Assembly (NCBI GenBank): GCA_023667845.1
Contig: JAMPIU010000206.1
Location: 62,001 to 126,000, forward strand
DNA length: 64,000 bases
Source of the DNA: Dehalobacter sp.
GTDB taxonomy: Bacteria; Bacillota; Desulfitobacteriia; Desulfitobacteriales; Syntrophobotulaceae
Direction: 5' to 3'
This document shows positions 17,542 to 43,021 of this stretch, one piece after another. Under the pieces are notes generated by a model, which saw only the letters and a list, made by a program, of their open reading frames with translations, was not told the origin of the DNA and made no database searches. The position numbers and the translations under genes were made by a program. Position 1 is the stretch's first letter, and every line of letters begins with the position of its first letter.

Positions 17542-17572
17542 TGAATATCTGTGTTAGAAATCCAACATACTA
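17542..17572 (+). promoter_or_regulatory. Sigma-G type promoter of gpr
   Basis: TGAATA, 18-nt spacer, CATACTA. This fits the B. subtilis forespore consensus (GHATR about 17-18 nt from CATNHTA). It lies 31 nt upstream of the gpr ATG, consistent with forespore expression of the protease. Confidence 0.75.
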
Positions 17573-17602: not shown

Positions 17603-18598
17603 ATGAAATTATCGAACAAATCAAGCTTTCTAAAAAAAATGAATATTTCTCTCGACCTGGCGGTGGAAGCCCATGACTTGCTGCGGGGAGAAAGAGGTCA
17701 AGAGATAGCGGGCGTCATCATGAAAAAAGAAGAACTTCAAGAGGCAACTGTCACCGCAATCCAAATCACAAATGCCAAAGGCGAAAAAGAATTGGGCAGG
17801 CCTAAAGGAAATTATATTACAATCGATGCTCCGGATATCAAAGAAAACAACTACCAGCAGCACAATAAAATCGTTGCAGTATTAGCAAGGCATCTCGCCG
17901 GATTGTTAAACTTTAAGGAAGATACCAGTTTTCTGATCGTTGGTCTTGGCAACTGGCAGGCAACTCCAGACGCGCTTGGGCCCAAAGTTGTCGAGAAAAT
18001 CATGGTCACCCGTCACCTTTTTCATTATACCCCCGAAGAAATTGAGGGGAAAATGCGCCAAGTGTCAGCGATATCACCTGGTGTGCTTGGACTGACCGGA
18101 ATCGAAACGGCGGAGGTAATCCGCGGACTGGTTGAACATGTCCGCCCGGATTATGTGATCGCGATCGATGCCTTGGCCGCGGGCGCCCTGGATAGAATCG
18201 GCACAACCATTCAATTAGCGGATACCGGGATCAATCCTGGTTCCGGAATTGGTAATCATCGCAAAGGGCTCAATGAAGAAACCCTTGGCTGCAAAGTCAT
18301 TGCTATCGGCGTTCCGACTGTTGTCAATGCTGCAATCATCGCGCATAAAACCATCGAAGAGCTTTTTGAACAAATGGAATCCGAACCTTCCCTGGCCAAA
18401 ATTTATCAACAGGAAAATGAACAGGTCTTGATGAATGTCATGCAGAAAGCCTTGTCGCCTTACGAGGGCAGCCTGATGGTTACACCCAAGGAAGTTGATG
18501 AATTAATTGAAAGAAGCGCCAAAATTATTGCTGCAGCGATCAACCAGAGCATTCATCCCGGAATTGACAGCCATAATTTTGAGACCTACCTCCATTAA
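17603..18598 (+). CDS. gpr: Germination protease (spore protease GPR)
   Basis: GPR degrades alpha/beta small acid-soluble spore proteins during germination. It is made as a zymogen in the forespore. The protein has 331 residues, within the range of clostridial forms. Family stretches are GLGNWQATPDALGPKV, HLFHYTPEE, GVLGLTGIETAEV, DALAAG and DTGINPGSGIGNHR. AAGGAG lies 11 nt upstream of the ATG. It is followed by a bidirectional terminator and a convergent SASP-like gene that carries an apparent GPR cleavage site. Confidence 0.95.
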   Translation: MKLSNKSSFLKKMNISLDLAVEAHDLLRGERGQEIAGVIMKKEELQEATVTAIQITNAKGEKELGRPKGNYITIDAPDIKENNYQQHNKIVAVLARHLAGLLNFKEDTSFLIVGLGNWQATPDALGPKVVEKIMVTRHLFHYTPEEIEGKMRQVSAISPGVLGLTGIETAEVIRGLVEHVRPDYVIAIDALAAGALDRIGTTIQLADTGINPGSGIGNHRKGLNEETLGCKVIAIGVPTVVNAAIIAHKTIEELFEQMESEPSLAKIYQQENEQVLMNVMQKALSPYEGSLMVTPKEVDELIERSAKIIAAAINQSIHPGIDSHNFETYLH

Positions 18599-18670
18599 AC
18601 AATCTACTTTTTACATCGACCCGAATAACGATAATGATTATAAGAAAAAGAATATCTTTTAACCGTAACT

Positions 18671-18722
18671 AAAAAACCTTTTGTTGCAGCATATCAATCA
18701 ATGCTTCAACAGAAGGTTTTTT
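18671..18722. terminator. Bidirectional terminator between gpr and the SASP-like gene
   Basis: ACCTTTTGTTGCAGCAT pairs with ATGCTTCAACAGAAGGT. The stem is flanked by six A on the left and six T on the right, so it can terminate both converging transcripts. Confidence 0.8.
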
Positions 18723-18733
18723 ATTCCGTATCT

Positions 18734-18780
18734 CGTCATTCGTCATTCGTAATTCGTCATTCTTTATTCTTTATTCGTTA
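18734..18780. repeat. Heptanucleotide tandem repeat
   Basis: Six 7-bp units plus a partial one: CGTCATT twice, CGTAATT, CGTCATT, CTTTATT twice, then CGTTA. The last units run into the 3' end of the SASP-like gene and supply its stop codon. Confidence 0.8.
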
Positions 18781-18898
18781 CGTCTTCTCTGTTTTTACTT
18801 TTTCTTTTTGTTTTTCTTTGGGGAAGACCCATCTCTTGCGCAATTTCATATTTTAGATTTTCCAATTCACTTGCCGTATCTTTTTTCGTCTCTGTCAT
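18764..18898 (-). CDS. Small SASP-like protein (44 residues)
   Basis: The encoded peptide includes SELENLKYEIAQEMGLPQ. This matches the first conserved block of alpha/beta-type small acid-soluble spore proteins (LKYEIAxELG), including the KYE-IAxE sequence at which GPR cuts. The tail is very basic (PQRKTKRKSKNR), and the second conserved SASP block is missing. An AAGGAGG site lies 8 nt upstream of the ATG and a sigma-G-like promoter about 60 nt further up. It is on the same strand as recG and convergent with gpr. It could instead be a truncated SASP remnant. Confidence 0.7.
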   Translation of the reverse strand: MTETKKDTASELENLKYEIAQEMGLPQRKTKRKSKNREDVTNKE

Positions 18899-18957
18899 AC
18901 CCTCTGCCTCCTTGAAAGTTCTGCATCAATCCATGACTGGAATGTGCCAACAAGAAA

Positions 18958-18986
18958 TAGTATGAGCCTGTGCAAAAAAATCATAC
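18958..18986 (-). promoter_or_regulatory. Putative sigma-G promoter of the SASP-like gene
   Basis: Minus-strand GTATG, 17-nt spacer, CATACTA. The -10 is identical to that of gpr. It would give a leader of about 50 nt before the SASP-like ATG. Confidence 0.55.
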
Positions 18987-19025: not shown

Positions 19026-21470
19026 CTAATTCACTCCGATTTTTTCTTTGGGATAAAGGCGGCTGACTTCCTGATAGGCTTTTTCGTACTTTTGAGGATC
19101 TTTCAGAACCTTTTGAAGCAGTTGATAGGCTTTTTCGACCAGCCTTCCATCAGTTCCCAGGTCTGTAAGCTTTAACTCCGGTACGCCATGCTGGCGAAGC
19201 CCAAGTAGCTCTCCCGGGCCCCGCATCTTCAAATCCTCCTCGGCAATCCGGAAACCGTCCTCTGTCTCACAAAGAACATTCAGCCGGGCACTGTCCCGGG
19301 TATTGCTGATCAGGAGACAATACGACTGCTCTTGTCCGCGTCCGACTCTTCCGCGAAGTTGGTGCAGCTGGGCAAGCCCGAATCTTTCAGCATCTTCGAT
19401 CACCATCACAGACGCGTTCGGTACATTGACTCCGACTTCGACGACAGTTGTCGTAACCAGGATATTAATCTCCCCACGTCGGAAACGCTGCATGATCTCC
19501 TCTTTCTCCTGTCCTTTCATTCTTCCGTGCAGAAGCGCAACGCTGCTTCCTTCAAAAATGCGGCTCAATTCATCAGCCTTTTGGGTTGCTGAAACAAAAT
19601 CCGATTTTTCTGTTTCCTCGACAAGCGGACAAACGACATAGATCTGCCGACCCGCAGCGACATGCTGCTTCAGAAATTTCTCCATGCTGGAGCGGCTGCG
19701 GTCTGAAATTTTTCTGGTGATAATCGGCTTCCTGCCAGCAGGCAGCTCGTCTAGCACCGAAAGCTGAAGATCGCCGTATAAAGTCAGCGCAAGCGTCCTC
19801 GGGATCGGGGTAGCGGTCATGACCAGGACATGCGGGTTCTCGCCTTTGTCCTGCAATAGGGTCCGCTGTCTGACGCCAAACCGGTGCTGTTCATCGGTGA
19901 TGGCAAGACCGAGGGCGTTGAACCGGACGGATTCCTGAATGAGGGTCTGGGTTCCGACGACAACCTGGGCTTTTCCGCTCAAAATCTGCCCTAAGATTTG
20001 TTCCCTTTCCGGCTTACTCTGGTTCCCGACAAGGAATACAACTTTTACCCCTAAAGGTTCAAACGCGGCCTGCAGCGATTCATAGTGCTGCTGGGCAAGC
20101 ACCTCAGTCGGCGCCATCATAGCGGCCTGAAAACCCGAGCCCACAGCCTGCAGCAGGGCAGCCATCGCTACCACGGTTTTACCTGATCCAACATCGCCCT
20201 GAAGCAAACGGGTCATCGGCCTCTCGATGCTCCCCATATCCCGGAATATTTCCCGGATGACTCTTTGCTGGGCGCCGGTCAGCCGAAAAGGAAGCCCGGA
20301 AACAAATTTTTGGACCAAAGCTCCACCCTGGTTTAAAACGAGACCTGCTTTCTGAGGCCCGGGGGAACGAAGCCTAGCCAGCGCCAGCTGAAGCAAAAGG
20401 ATTTCCTCAACGACCAGTCTTTCGCGTGCCTTTTTCAGGTTTTCTGCGGAGTGCGGAAAATGAATTTCTTTAATGGCTTGCCGCCGTTCCATCAAATTGT
20501 TTTCCTCATACGGAAAGAACTCGTCAAAGATTCGATCAACCTGCGGCAAAACAACCTGGATGATCTCCCGGATCGTTTTCGAATTGAGACGGGCTGTTTC
20601 CGAATATACTGGAACCATTTTTTGAGCAGGACCCTCGTAAAGTCCTTTCATGATTTCGGACGCAAGCAATTCCGGGACCCTGGTGCGCCATTGTGCTTTT
20701 CCTGTCACAGTGACCTTTGTTCCGTCCGGATATTGTTTTGGAATATGTATTTGATTGAACCAGACGGCATGAATGCTTCTGCCGTCCTGTTCAATATTTA
20801 GTTTGACGACCTTGACTCTGCCTTTGGTAACCTGGCTTCCAGTTACAATCCCGTCAATCGTAACATACTCTCCGTCCTGAATATCCTGAATCCGCCGTTT
20901 CGATCGGATTTCATATTTACGCGGATAATACCGCAGAAGATCCTCAGCAGTACAAATCCCCATATTTTCGAACTGTTTGGCTCTTTGCGGTCCGACACCT
21001 TTGATATACTGCAGGTTTTGGGGCTGACTGATGCTCCCTGTCTGAACTTTAAGGCTGGTTAAGGCTTTCTCTGTGGTACGAAAGGTTCCGGATGCTTCTT
21101 CGGTCGTTGTTCCGCAGATTGTTCCAGAAGCTAGTCCAGGAGTATCTAAAGATGCTGTTTTATCTGCAGCATGATAGGTTGCTGCAGATAAATCTCCAGC
21201 TGACTTTTCGGTTACTTCCGTTTTGTCCAGCAGTTCCTGGAGTTCACGCCATAAAGCCCGTCGTTTATACGGGCTGACTTCATGATATTCCTCTGCAATA
21301 CACTGCATTGAGGCAAGGTTTTCCGCGGAAAAAACACCACCCAGTTCAGCAATTAAGTCCAGTAAAAATCTGCTGAAGCCGCCGACTGCGCCTGTATTAA
21401 TAAATCCCTGTTTTTCCTCGGCTTTCATTGCCCTATTCACGCTGTTTCGCCAATGATCTGATTGCAGCAC
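19026..21470 (-). CDS. recG: ATP-dependent DNA helicase RecG with extended N-terminus
   Basis: RecG remodels stalled forks and Holliday junctions. The wedge/OB domain begins at LQYIKGVGPQRAKQFENMG. Walker A is GDVGSGKTVVAM (about 425) and the Walker B box is DEQH (about 526). Motif VI is AQLHQLRGRVGRGQEQSYC. I chose GTG at 21470 (AAGGTGAG just upstream, 4 nt after the sdaAA stop), giving 814 residues. ATG at 21428 is the alternative. Either way about 140-155 residues precede the region where E. coli and B. subtilis RecG start. Part of this is a Ser/Thr/Ala-rich linker. Confidence 0.93.
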   Translation of the reverse strand: MLQSDHWRNSVNRAMKAEEKQGFINTGAVGGFSRFLLDLIAELGGVFSAENLASMQCIAEEYHEVSPYKRRALWRELQELLDKTEVTEKSAGDLSAATYHAADKTASLDTPGLASGTICGTTTEEASGTFRTTEKALTSLKVQTGSISQPQNLQYIKGVGPQRAKQFENMGICTAEDLLRYYPRKYEIRSKRRIQDIQDGEYVTIDGIVTGSQVTKGRVKVVKLNIEQDGRSIHAVWFNQIHIPKQYPDGTKVTVTGKAQWRTRVPELLASEIMKGLYEGPAQKMVPVYSETARLNSKTIREIIQVVLPQVDRIFDEFFPYEENNLMERRQAIKEIHFPHSAENLKKARERLVVEEILLLQLALARLRSPGPQKAGLVLNQGGALVQKFVSGLPFRLTGAQQRVIREIFRDMGSIERPMTRLLQGDVGSGKTVVAMAALLQAVGSGFQAAMMAPTEVLAQQHYESLQAAFEPLGVKVVFLVGNQSKPEREQILGQILSGKAQVVVGTQTLIQESVRFNALGLAITDEQHRFGVRQRTLLQDKGENPHVLVMTATPIPRTLALTLYGDLQLSVLDELPAGRKPIITRKISDRSRSSMEKFLKQHVAAGRQIYVVCPLVEETEKSDFVSATQKADELSRIFEGSSVALLHGRMKGQEKEEIMQRFRRGEINILVTTTVVEVGVNVPNASVMVIEDAERFGLAQLHQLRGRVGRGQEQSYCLLISNTRDSARLNVLCETEDGFRIAEEDLKMRGPGELLGLRQHGVPELKLTDLGTDGRLVEKAYQLLQKVLKDPQKYEKAYQEVSRLYPKEKIGVN

Positions 21471-21474
21471 ATTC

Positions 21475-22341
21475 TCACCTTGCCAAATGATCTTTATATT
21501 TCTGAGCCGCAGGAGTGACGGCGAGTCCCCCCCGGGACGTTTCCTTAAGGCTGCAGGACATTTCCCTGCCGATTGAAGCCATTGCATCAATGACCTGATC
21601 CAATGGGATCGCACTTTTGATTCCAGCCAAAGCCATCTCGGCTGCGGTTAATGCTATAACTGCTGCCATGGCGTTCCTTTTTACACAGGGCACCTCGACC
21701 AGCCCAGCTACAGGGTCACAGACCAAACCAAGAAAACTTTTCAAAGCCAATGCTGCTGCCTGCGCTGTTTGATCGGGCGATCCGCCGCACAATTCCACTG
21801 CCGCAGCTGCAGCCATGGCAGCCGCTGAACCTATCTCAGCCTGACACCCGCCTTCTGCACCTGAGACACTAGCTCTTTCCGCAATGACCATCCCAAGGCC
21901 AGCAGATGTAAAAAGAGTCTGAACAGCATCTTCTTCCGTTGCATCCGACATTTCTTGAACTGTCAGCAGTACAGCGGGCAACACGCCGCATGATCCCGCT
22001 GTCGGTGCTGCAACGATCCTGCCCATGCCAGCGTTTACCTCAGCTACGGCCATTGCTCTGGCTGCTGCCTTGTTTACCGGATTACCCAGAATCGACTTGC
22101 CGCTTTCTCTATATTTCTCCAAAAGAACAGCTTCTCCTCCTACAAGACCTGACAATGATCTCCATTCTCCGGTCATTCCGCTTTCAACTGATTCCCGCAT
22201 CACGGCATAATGGTTCTTCATTTTTTTTAACAGCTGTTCAGCCGGTATACCTGTCCTCAAACATTCCTCCTGAAGAACCATATCACTGATTTTTTTATTA
22301 AGCTTTTCGGTTTTTTCCACTAATTCACCATAAGAACGCAT
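21475..22341 (-). CDS. sdaAA: L-serine dehydratase, iron-sulfur, alpha subunit
   Basis: It converts L-serine to pyruvate and ammonia together with SdaAB. The protein has 288 residues. Cluster cysteines are in PTAGSCGVLPAVLL, GAEGGCQAEIGSAAAMAA and CDPVAGLVEVPCVKRNAMAA. I chose ATG at 22341, preceded by a GGGGGGG tract 7 nt away. A TTG overlapping the sdaAB stop is the alternative. Order sdaAB-sdaAA-recG is as in B. subtilis. Confidence 0.95.
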   Translation of the reverse strand: MRSYGELVEKTEKLNKKISDMVLQEECLRTGIPAEQLLKKMKNHYAVMRESVESGMTGEWRSLSGLVGGEAVLLEKYRESGKSILGNPVNKAAARAMAVAEVNAGMGRIVAAPTAGSCGVLPAVLLTVQEMSDATEEDAVQTLFTSAGLGMVIAERASVSGAEGGCQAEIGSAAAMAAAAAVELCGGSPDQTAQAAALALKSFLGLVCDPVAGLVEVPCVKRNAMAAVIALTAAEMALAGIKSAIPLDQVIDAMASIGREMSCSLKETSRGGLAVTPAAQKYKDHLAR

Positions 22342-40663: not shown

Positions 40664-43021
40664 TTAAGATAGCGGATTTACCTCAATACTGATATTGATC
40701 CCTGAGCTGGCCGTTCCAAGATAGAAAGCGCGGACTCCTTGATGGACGATCCTGCGGAGGACCGCTGGGTTCTTTCCTTTGACCGATACCTGCCAGCGAA
40801 ATTCATTCTTCAGCCTGGTCAAAACAGCCGGTGCCGGGCCAAGAATCACATATTCCTGATCCTGTTCAGCAAGCACCAGGCGGATGCTGTTGGCCAGGTC
40901 CTGAGCCGCTTTGATTACCCGATCTTCTTTTTCATGAAAAATCATGATCCTGATGATATGAGCAAACGGCGGATAACTTTGCTGTTTCCGGTAAGCGATC
41001 TCTTCCCAAAAAAAGGCTGCATAATCCTGTTTGGCTGCCCGCAGGATCGATCTTTCTTCAGGTGAATAGGTCTGGATCACCACTTCGCCGCCTTTAGTCC
41101 CACGTCCTGCCCTTCCAGCAACCTGAGTCAGCAGCTGGAAAGCTCGTTCTCTGGATCGAAAGTCGGGCATATTGAAAAGTTGGTCGGCAGAGATTACACC
41201 GACAAGGGTAACGTTCGGGAAATCCAGCCCTTTGGCCAGCATTTGGGTCCCGACAAGAATCGGAACCTCTCCGCTGCGAAAGCGTTCTAGAATTCTATTG
41301 TACTCCCGGGAACCGGAGGTCGTATCCGTATCCAGCCGTAAGACTTCAACTCCGGGAAACAAAGCAGAAACCTCTTCTTCAACTTTTTGGGTTCCCTGGC
41401 CGAAGAAACGGATAAACCGGCTGTTACATTCCGGGCAGCGGTGAAAAACATCCTGTTGATAATTGCAGTAGTGACAGCACAACCGCTGATGATGACTGTG
41501 ATATGTCAGGGAAACATCACAATGCGGGCAACGTGCGACATACCCGCATTCACGACAAAATACAAAAGTCGAATAACCTCTGCGGTTCAGAAAAAGGATA
41601 CTTTGTTCTCCGTTGTCGATTCTCTCCTGAAGCTTGTTTCTGAGTAGCATGGAAAACATTGTTTTATTGCCGCTGGCCAGTTCTTGTTTCATATCCACAA
41701 TATCGACAGCGGGTAACGCCCGTTGGTTGAAACGTTCTTCCAGTGACACAAGACCAATTTTATCCCTTTGGGCCGCCGCATACGCTTCCAGGGATGGGGT
41801 AGCGCTGCCCAGAAGCACAAGCCCGCCTCTGTCTTCCATCCTTTTCCGGGCGACGTCCCGGGCATGATATTTGGGGTTTTCATCCTGTTTATAAGCGTTA
41901 TCGTGTTCCTCATCCAGTATGATCAGCTTAAGGTTTGACAGAGGCGCAAAAACAGCGGAGCGCGCTCCGATAATCACGCGCTTATTCCGTTGCAGAATTT
42001 GCTCCCAAATTGCTAGTTTATCGCCGGAGCTGATGCCTGAATGAATAATTCCGACAATATCTCCGAACTGTTCCAGAAATATTCTGGAGATCTGAGAGGT
42101 AAGTGAAATCTCAGGCACAAGCAGAATAACATCGCCGCCTTCAGCCAGTACCTTTGCCACCAGCTCTTTATAAACCGCTGTCTTGCCACTGCCGGTTATC
42201 CCATGGATCAAAACCGTTCCGCCATCATTTTTATTGCGAAACGCCAGAATATCCTGGAAAACTTTTTCCTGGGCAGGACTTAATGCGCCTGTAACGTGCC
42301 GAACGGAACCAGCTGTTATCTGCTCAATATTGTTTCTCATATCGACGTCTATGTCTTTATCTGTGTCTTTATCTGTGTCTATATCTGTGTTTATATCTAT
42401 GTCTATATCAATTTTATTCTCTATGTTATTTTTTTTTCTTTCATTCACGTCGGAACTGCCTGCTTTTCCGGAAAACCGTATTTCTTTTTTGATCCATCCC
42501 TGCTTAAGCATATCCTCAAGCAGTTCTTTCTTCGCTCCGCTTCTCTTTACCAGGACATTTTCCGGCAGGCCTCCCCGGCGCGACCTGTTAAGGGTTTTTA
42601 AGACCTGAAATGTATCCGGATCGAGAAGCTCCAAAACTTTAACGTCCTCATCGTCCATGCTGGCCATGGAAGTCATCCAGGTTTCTCCCTTTCCCTTTAA
42701 AAAAGGCCACACAGAATGAAGGGCTTGCGCTTTTGGGCAGATCGTCGTCTCCGAAAGCCAGCAGGCCAATTCTATGAGCTCCGGTGGAATCAGACAGTTT
42801 TCCTCCAGGACCGCTTCTATGCTGCGGAATCTGGGCTCACCGTCGAGTTCAGGCGGGTCGGAACTGATACTGACAACGAGGCCCCGGACTTTTCTGTGCT
42901 TAAGCGGGACAACCACCATCATCCCTGCATGAATTACGAGATTGTCCGGAATGTAGTAATGAAAACTCTGATCAAGACGCCTGTTGGCGACATCGATCAG
43001 CACCTCTGCGTATCCGCTCAA
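40664..43021 (-). CDS. priA: Primosomal protein N' (replication restart helicase PriA)
   Basis: The protein has 785 residues. The N-terminal 3'-end-binding domain is followed by helicase motifs GITGSGKTAVYKEL (Walker A, about 272), ILDEEHDNAYKQ and GSATPSLEAY. A zinc-binding cysteine cluster (CRECGYVARCPHC, CCHYCN, CPECNS) is at about 485-525. Between the DNA-binding region and the helicase is an acidic repeat (about residues 203-226), IDIDID then TDKDTDKDIDVD, encoded by a tandem DNA repeat. The start is TTG, 9 nt after GGAGGAG. Confidence 0.95.
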   Translation of the reverse strand: MSGYAEVLIDVANRRLDQSFHYYIPDNLVIHAGMMVVVPLKHRKVRGLVVSISSDPPELDGEPRFRSIEAVLEENCLIPPELIELACWLSETTICPKAQALHSVWPFLKGKGETWMTSMASMDDEDVKVLELLDPDTFQVLKTLNRSRRGGLPENVLVKRSGAKKELLEDMLKQGWIKKEIRFSGKAGSSDVNERKKNNIENKIDIDIDINTDIDTDKDTDKDIDVDMRNNIEQITAGSVRHVTGALSPAQEKVFQDILAFRNKNDGGTVLIHGITGSGKTAVYKELVAKVLAEGGDVILLVPEISLTSQISRIFLEQFGDIVGIIHSGISSGDKLAIWEQILQRNKRVIIGARSAVFAPLSNLKLIILDEEHDNAYKQDENPKYHARDVARKRMEDRGGLVLLGSATPSLEAYAAAQRDKIGLVSLEERFNQRALPAVDIVDMKQELASGNKTMFSMLLRNKLQERIDNGEQSILFLNRRGYSTFVFCRECGYVARCPHCDVSLTYHSHHQRLCCHYCNYQQDVFHRCPECNSRFIRFFGQGTQKVEEEVSALFPGVEVLRLDTDTTSGSREYNRILERFRSGEVPILVGTQMLAKGLDFPNVTLVGVISADQLFNMPDFRSRERAFQLLTQVAGRAGRGTKGGEVVIQTYSPEERSILRAAKQDYAAFFWEEIAYRKQQSYPPFAHIIRIMIFHEKEDRVIKAAQDLANSIRLVLAEQDQEYVILGPAPAVLTRLKNEFRWQVSVKGKNPAVLRRIVHQGVRAFYLGTASSGINISIEVNPLS
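42341..42413. repeat. In-frame tandem repeat inside priA
   Basis: About 73 bp of imperfect 6/12-bp units of the form TCTATATCTGTG and TCTTTATCTGTG on the plus strand. It encodes alternating Asp with Ile, Thr, Lys or Val. Units are multiples of 3, so copy number changes would stay in frame. Confidence 0.8.

Follow-up and report, generated by a model that had tools for sequence, protein, structure and literature searches.

The mini-SASP gene and its surroundings

The window, the whole 64-kb stretch of DNA that was analysed, contains between gpr and recG a short minus-strand ORF of 44 amino acids (18764..18898), here called the mini-SASP or mini. Its translation is MTETKKDTASELENLKYEIAQEMGLPQRKTKRKSKNREDVTNKE, its ATG is preceded at a distance of 8 nt by the ribosome-binding site AAGGAGG (18907..18913, minus strand), and orthologues are found throughout the order. 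The gpr gene (17603..18598, plus strand), which converges on the mini, belongs to PF03418 and matches the GPR endopeptidase model TIGR01441 with 396 bits; GPR is the protease that removes spore proteins when spores germinate. On the other side of the mini, 127 nt upstream of it and on the same strand, is an ORF (19026..21614, minus strand, true start probably internal) that we take, from its sequence and established knowledge, to be recG. The preliminary description of the locus as a 44-codon SASP-like ORF with AAGGAGG 8 nt upstream and convergent with gpr was confirmed.

Both gpr and the mini are preceded by a sigma-G-type promoter: GAATA-18-CATACTA for gpr (17543..17572, plus strand) and GTATG-17-CATACTA for the mini (18958..18986, minus strand), the latter being shared by four species of the genus. 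A scan of both strands of the whole window with the pattern GHATR-17/18-CATNNTA found exactly these two sites, against a mean of 1.35 anywhere in shuffled sequences. The proposal that the mini has its own sigma-G-like promoter with the same -10 element as gpr, CATACTA, therefore stands, and the two sites are the sole exact matches in 64 kb.

Between the two convergent genes there is a hairpin (18670..18723) with U-runs on both strands and folding energies of -26.3 and -22.9 kcal/mol (z scores -10.2 and -6.7), which is likely to be a bidirectional terminator. No terminator-like site was detected between the recG ORF and the mini gene, and since the two are on the same strand and only 127 nt apart, vegetative read-through from recG into the mini is possible. 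The interval between gpr and the mini also contains a degenerate GAATNAN heptad repeat (GAATGAC/GAATAAA type; 18733-18778, approximately 6.6 copies), which runs into the mini ORF and encodes its last codons (TNKE and the stop). The top-scoring tandem array of the window is elsewhere, at 42348-42426, and is an imperfect repeat of 12 bases (TCTGTGTCTATA).

A SASP with a single conserved block

The mini peptide matches the Pfam SASP model PF00269 with 24.7 bits, above the gathering cut-off of 22, and the match covers profile positions 8-33 of 59, which is block 1 only. The conserved block 1, ELENLKYEIAQEMGL (18824..18868, minus strand), includes KYEIAQEMG, which fits the GPR cleavage motif K-x-E-[LIV]-A-x-[DE]-x-G, and the motif is kept in the orthologues; known GPR sites place the expected cut between E18 and I19. 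The earlier reading of a first SASP block with a GPR-type site, KYE/IAQE, is upheld by these matches. The remainder of the protein is a basic tail, PQRKTKRKSKNREDVTNKE (18764..18823, minus strand), with a net charge of +5. The tail had also been noted before and its charge is real; its TNKE end is repeat-derived and for that reason is not a conserved feature.

Block 2, the GG-containing DNA-binding helix, was found neither in the mini protein nor in any of the three minus-strand frames of the 300 nt downstream. This agrees with the preliminary description, in which the second block was missing, and no frameshifted second block of a full-length SASP was found. Strong block-2 matches do occur downstream of the mini in relatives, 12 in all, and at these loci the mini is followed by an intact full-length SASP gene. 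None of the NCBIfam families matches the mini peptide, and a PDB search with it gave no match, whereas a full-length paralogue matches SspC (2z3x). When the threshold is relaxed to E values of up to 10, the Pfam SASP model matches 21 of 22 minis from across the phylum. A structure model of moderate confidence predicts a lone helix at residues 3-23 followed by no regular structure, which would fit a short peptide accessible to GPR. In sequence, then, the mini is related to the SASPs, yet the missing second block keeps it from counting as a full alpha/beta SASP.

Conservation and selection in relatives

Among 61 genomes from the genus, family and order of the window, a search at the protein level found a mini orthologue in 47, so the frame is kept in relatives. 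The gpr gene is present in 53 of these genomes, 47 with a mini and six without a detected one, and none of the eight genomes lacking gpr has a mini (Fisher p ~1e-6, uncorrected for kinship, of which the counts are not independent). Wherever the two genes are on one contig, in 44 genomes, they are convergent with the mini 3' of gpr, and in 37 they are within 1 kb of each other. One genus of the window's family (G007, G016, G020, G023 and G024) lacks gpr, every SASP and the mini in all five genomes, which suggests a genus-wide loss of sporulation.

When a collection of 84,980 species of bacteria and archaea was scanned for the motif, 42 loci were found, every one with a label of Bacillota or of a clostridial group, and recG-mini-gpr is the gene order at most of them, including named loci of Desulfosporosinus, Acididesulfobacillus and Paradesulfitobacterium, among others. 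A link of the mini to recG only was considered and rejected: in some genomes the mini keeps its place next to gpr with recG kilobases distant, and in others it adjoins recG, so the block is recG-mini-gpr.

Among 22 Desulfosporosinus-type minis dN/dS is approximately 0.04 overall, with values of 0.02 in the helix block and 0.02 in the basic tail. The three sequences from the window's own genus differ by 12 nonsynonymous and four synonymous changes and are too similar for dN/dS to be judged.

A convergent SASP cluster downstream of gpr

The 4 kb downstream of gpr was searched in a phylum sample of 100 genomes, using models of SASPs and of minis built for this analysis. SASP genes are present in 42 of the flanks and are always convergent with gpr. 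The mini is found in 17 flanks, in 15 of them together with a full-length SASP, and in all 15 mixed arrays the SspA-type full-length genes lie closer to gpr and the mini comes before them in transcription order; in one array an SspF-type gene is farther out than the mini. The minis span approximately 15 families, counted mostly by assigned labels, and include the window's order. In many families two or three SASP genes are clustered in convergent orientation to gpr (L190, L191, L196, L197, L208, L222, L224, L228, L230 and others). At L230 (genome G065) two adjacent full-length SASP genes, 114-661 nt after gpr, encode identical proteins, evidently through tandem duplication or gene conversion in the very recent past. 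Our literature search found no paper describing this cluster of gpr with its substrates. Because the gene order is shared, common descent of the gpr-SASP cluster can be argued, and genome comparison indicates that in the window's order the full-length SASPs have been lost from the spot adjacent to gpr, where the mini alone remains.

Among the 65 minis collected across the phylum, some of which were assigned on weak scores so that individual assignments may be wrong, 34 have a sigma-G-like promoter with at most one mismatch (shuffles, mean 4.6, maximum 10), and Q follows the A of the cleavage site in 63. Residues E18, E22 and G24 are invariant throughout the phylum-wide set and, when set against full-length SASPs, the minis never have T after the E. 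Full-length SASPs behave alike with respect to the promoter, which precedes 33 of 74 (shuffles, mean 6.4). These counts beyond the genus required that one mismatch be allowed, the strict pattern finding almost nothing outside the window's genus.

Discussion

We consider it probable that the mini is a real sporulation gene, encoding an ancient peptide of the alpha/beta-type SASP superfamily with a single block, which would serve as a forespore peptide with a minor role and be cut by GPR at KYE/IAQE. The two promoters suggest that transcription of the mini takes place in the forespore, is driven by a sigma-G-type promoter of its own and coincides in stage with that of gpr. The spore core would presumably hold the peptide, a short helix followed by a basic tail, until germination, when, as the conserved site suggests, GPR would cut it at E18/I19. 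It is probably unable to coat DNA as SspA or SspC do, because the second SASP block is missing. Most likely it would serve as a minor spore peptide that GPR can degrade and that its basic tail would attach loosely to DNA or other SASPs, and it may also be a small source of amino acids. The mini appears to have arisen as the outermost gene of the gpr-convergent SASP cluster, of which the window's order would keep only this member at that spot.

The preliminary description had suggested a dedicated or regulatory substrate. In such a scheme the mini would act on GPR as a regulator or competitive decoy, occupying the active site in the forespore or early in germination and so timing the bulk degradation of SASPs, with additional affinity provided by the basic tail. 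The near-invariant cleavage site (E, Q in 63 of 65, E and G) of a protein without block 2, the retention of the mini beside gpr where the window's order has no full-length copy left, and a promoter of the same class as that of gpr are consistent with this. However, ordinary full-length SASPs occupy the same convergent spot in many other families, so it is the SASP cluster as a whole, and not the mini alone, that is found near gpr, and GPR cuts SASPs generally, so that a conserved site by itself does not make a regulator. The suggestion is not specifically supported and we regard it as unlikely.

Similarly doubtful is a function as a DNA- or nucleoid-binding spore peptide, in which the block 1 helix and the lysine/arginine tail would bind DNA or cap filaments of full-length SASPs until removed by GPR. 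After the block, the minis have a median of 14 residues with a median charge of +4, versus 39 residues and +2 in full-length SASPs, and the dN/dS of 0.02 in the tail of the Desulfosporosinus-type set points to purifying selection. Against this, the sequence of the tail varies from one family to another, and the minis have no second block, which alpha/beta SASPs conserve and the solved SspC chain 2z3x contains. It is very improbable that the mini is a functionless chance ORF or the decaying remnant of a full-length SASP, as its short length, repeat-derived end and low substitution counts at the genus level might suggest, because frame and position are conserved across the order, dN/dS is 0.04, many families have minis as genes in their own right next to intact full-length ones, and no block-2 remnant was found downstream.

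As a putative one-block GPR substrate, the mini shares with the alpha/beta-type SASPs (PF00269; SspA, SspB, SspC) block 1, K-Y-E-[IV]-A-x-E-x-G with its GPR site, as well as a sigma-G-type promoter and, in related families, clustering beside gpr. It differs from them in having no GG-containing second helix, a length of approximately 42 rather than approximately 72 amino acids, a short, strongly basic tail and a nearly fixed Q after the A. It can be regarded as a new variant within a well-known spore protein family, one that retains the GPR site and has lost half of the usual SASP. Judged from locus L248, presumably that of Moorella, the SASP moth_0925 appears to be full-length with block 2, unlike the mini. 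It resembles the mini in adjoining gpr (moth_0926 in Moorella thermoacetica) and has been identified in spores by mass spectrometry (PMC8745062), which shows expression of the gpr-SASP cluster in at least one organism. The SASPs of C. difficile have the same EIA site and are cut by GPR (PMC8452069).

Among the known systems, the gamma-type SASP of Bacillus, SspE, is like the mini in role only, as a GPR-cleavable spore peptide that is not expected to coat DNA; its sequence is different. In the literature on short or truncated SASPs we found no spore paper describing the mini gene. The available text of a published sporulation gene census does not describe it either (PMC3533761), and gamma-type SASPs are reported to be absent from clostridia (PMC3533761, PMC8452069). 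Clostridia are said to be without the gamma-type GPR substrates of Bacillus that do not coat DNA, and in this phylum the widely conserved one-block SASP beside gpr would be a candidate for a peptide of that kind. The mini would be a simple natural substrate for asking what recognition by GPR needs. The conserved convergent cluster of gpr and its substrates may also aid the annotation of genes this short.
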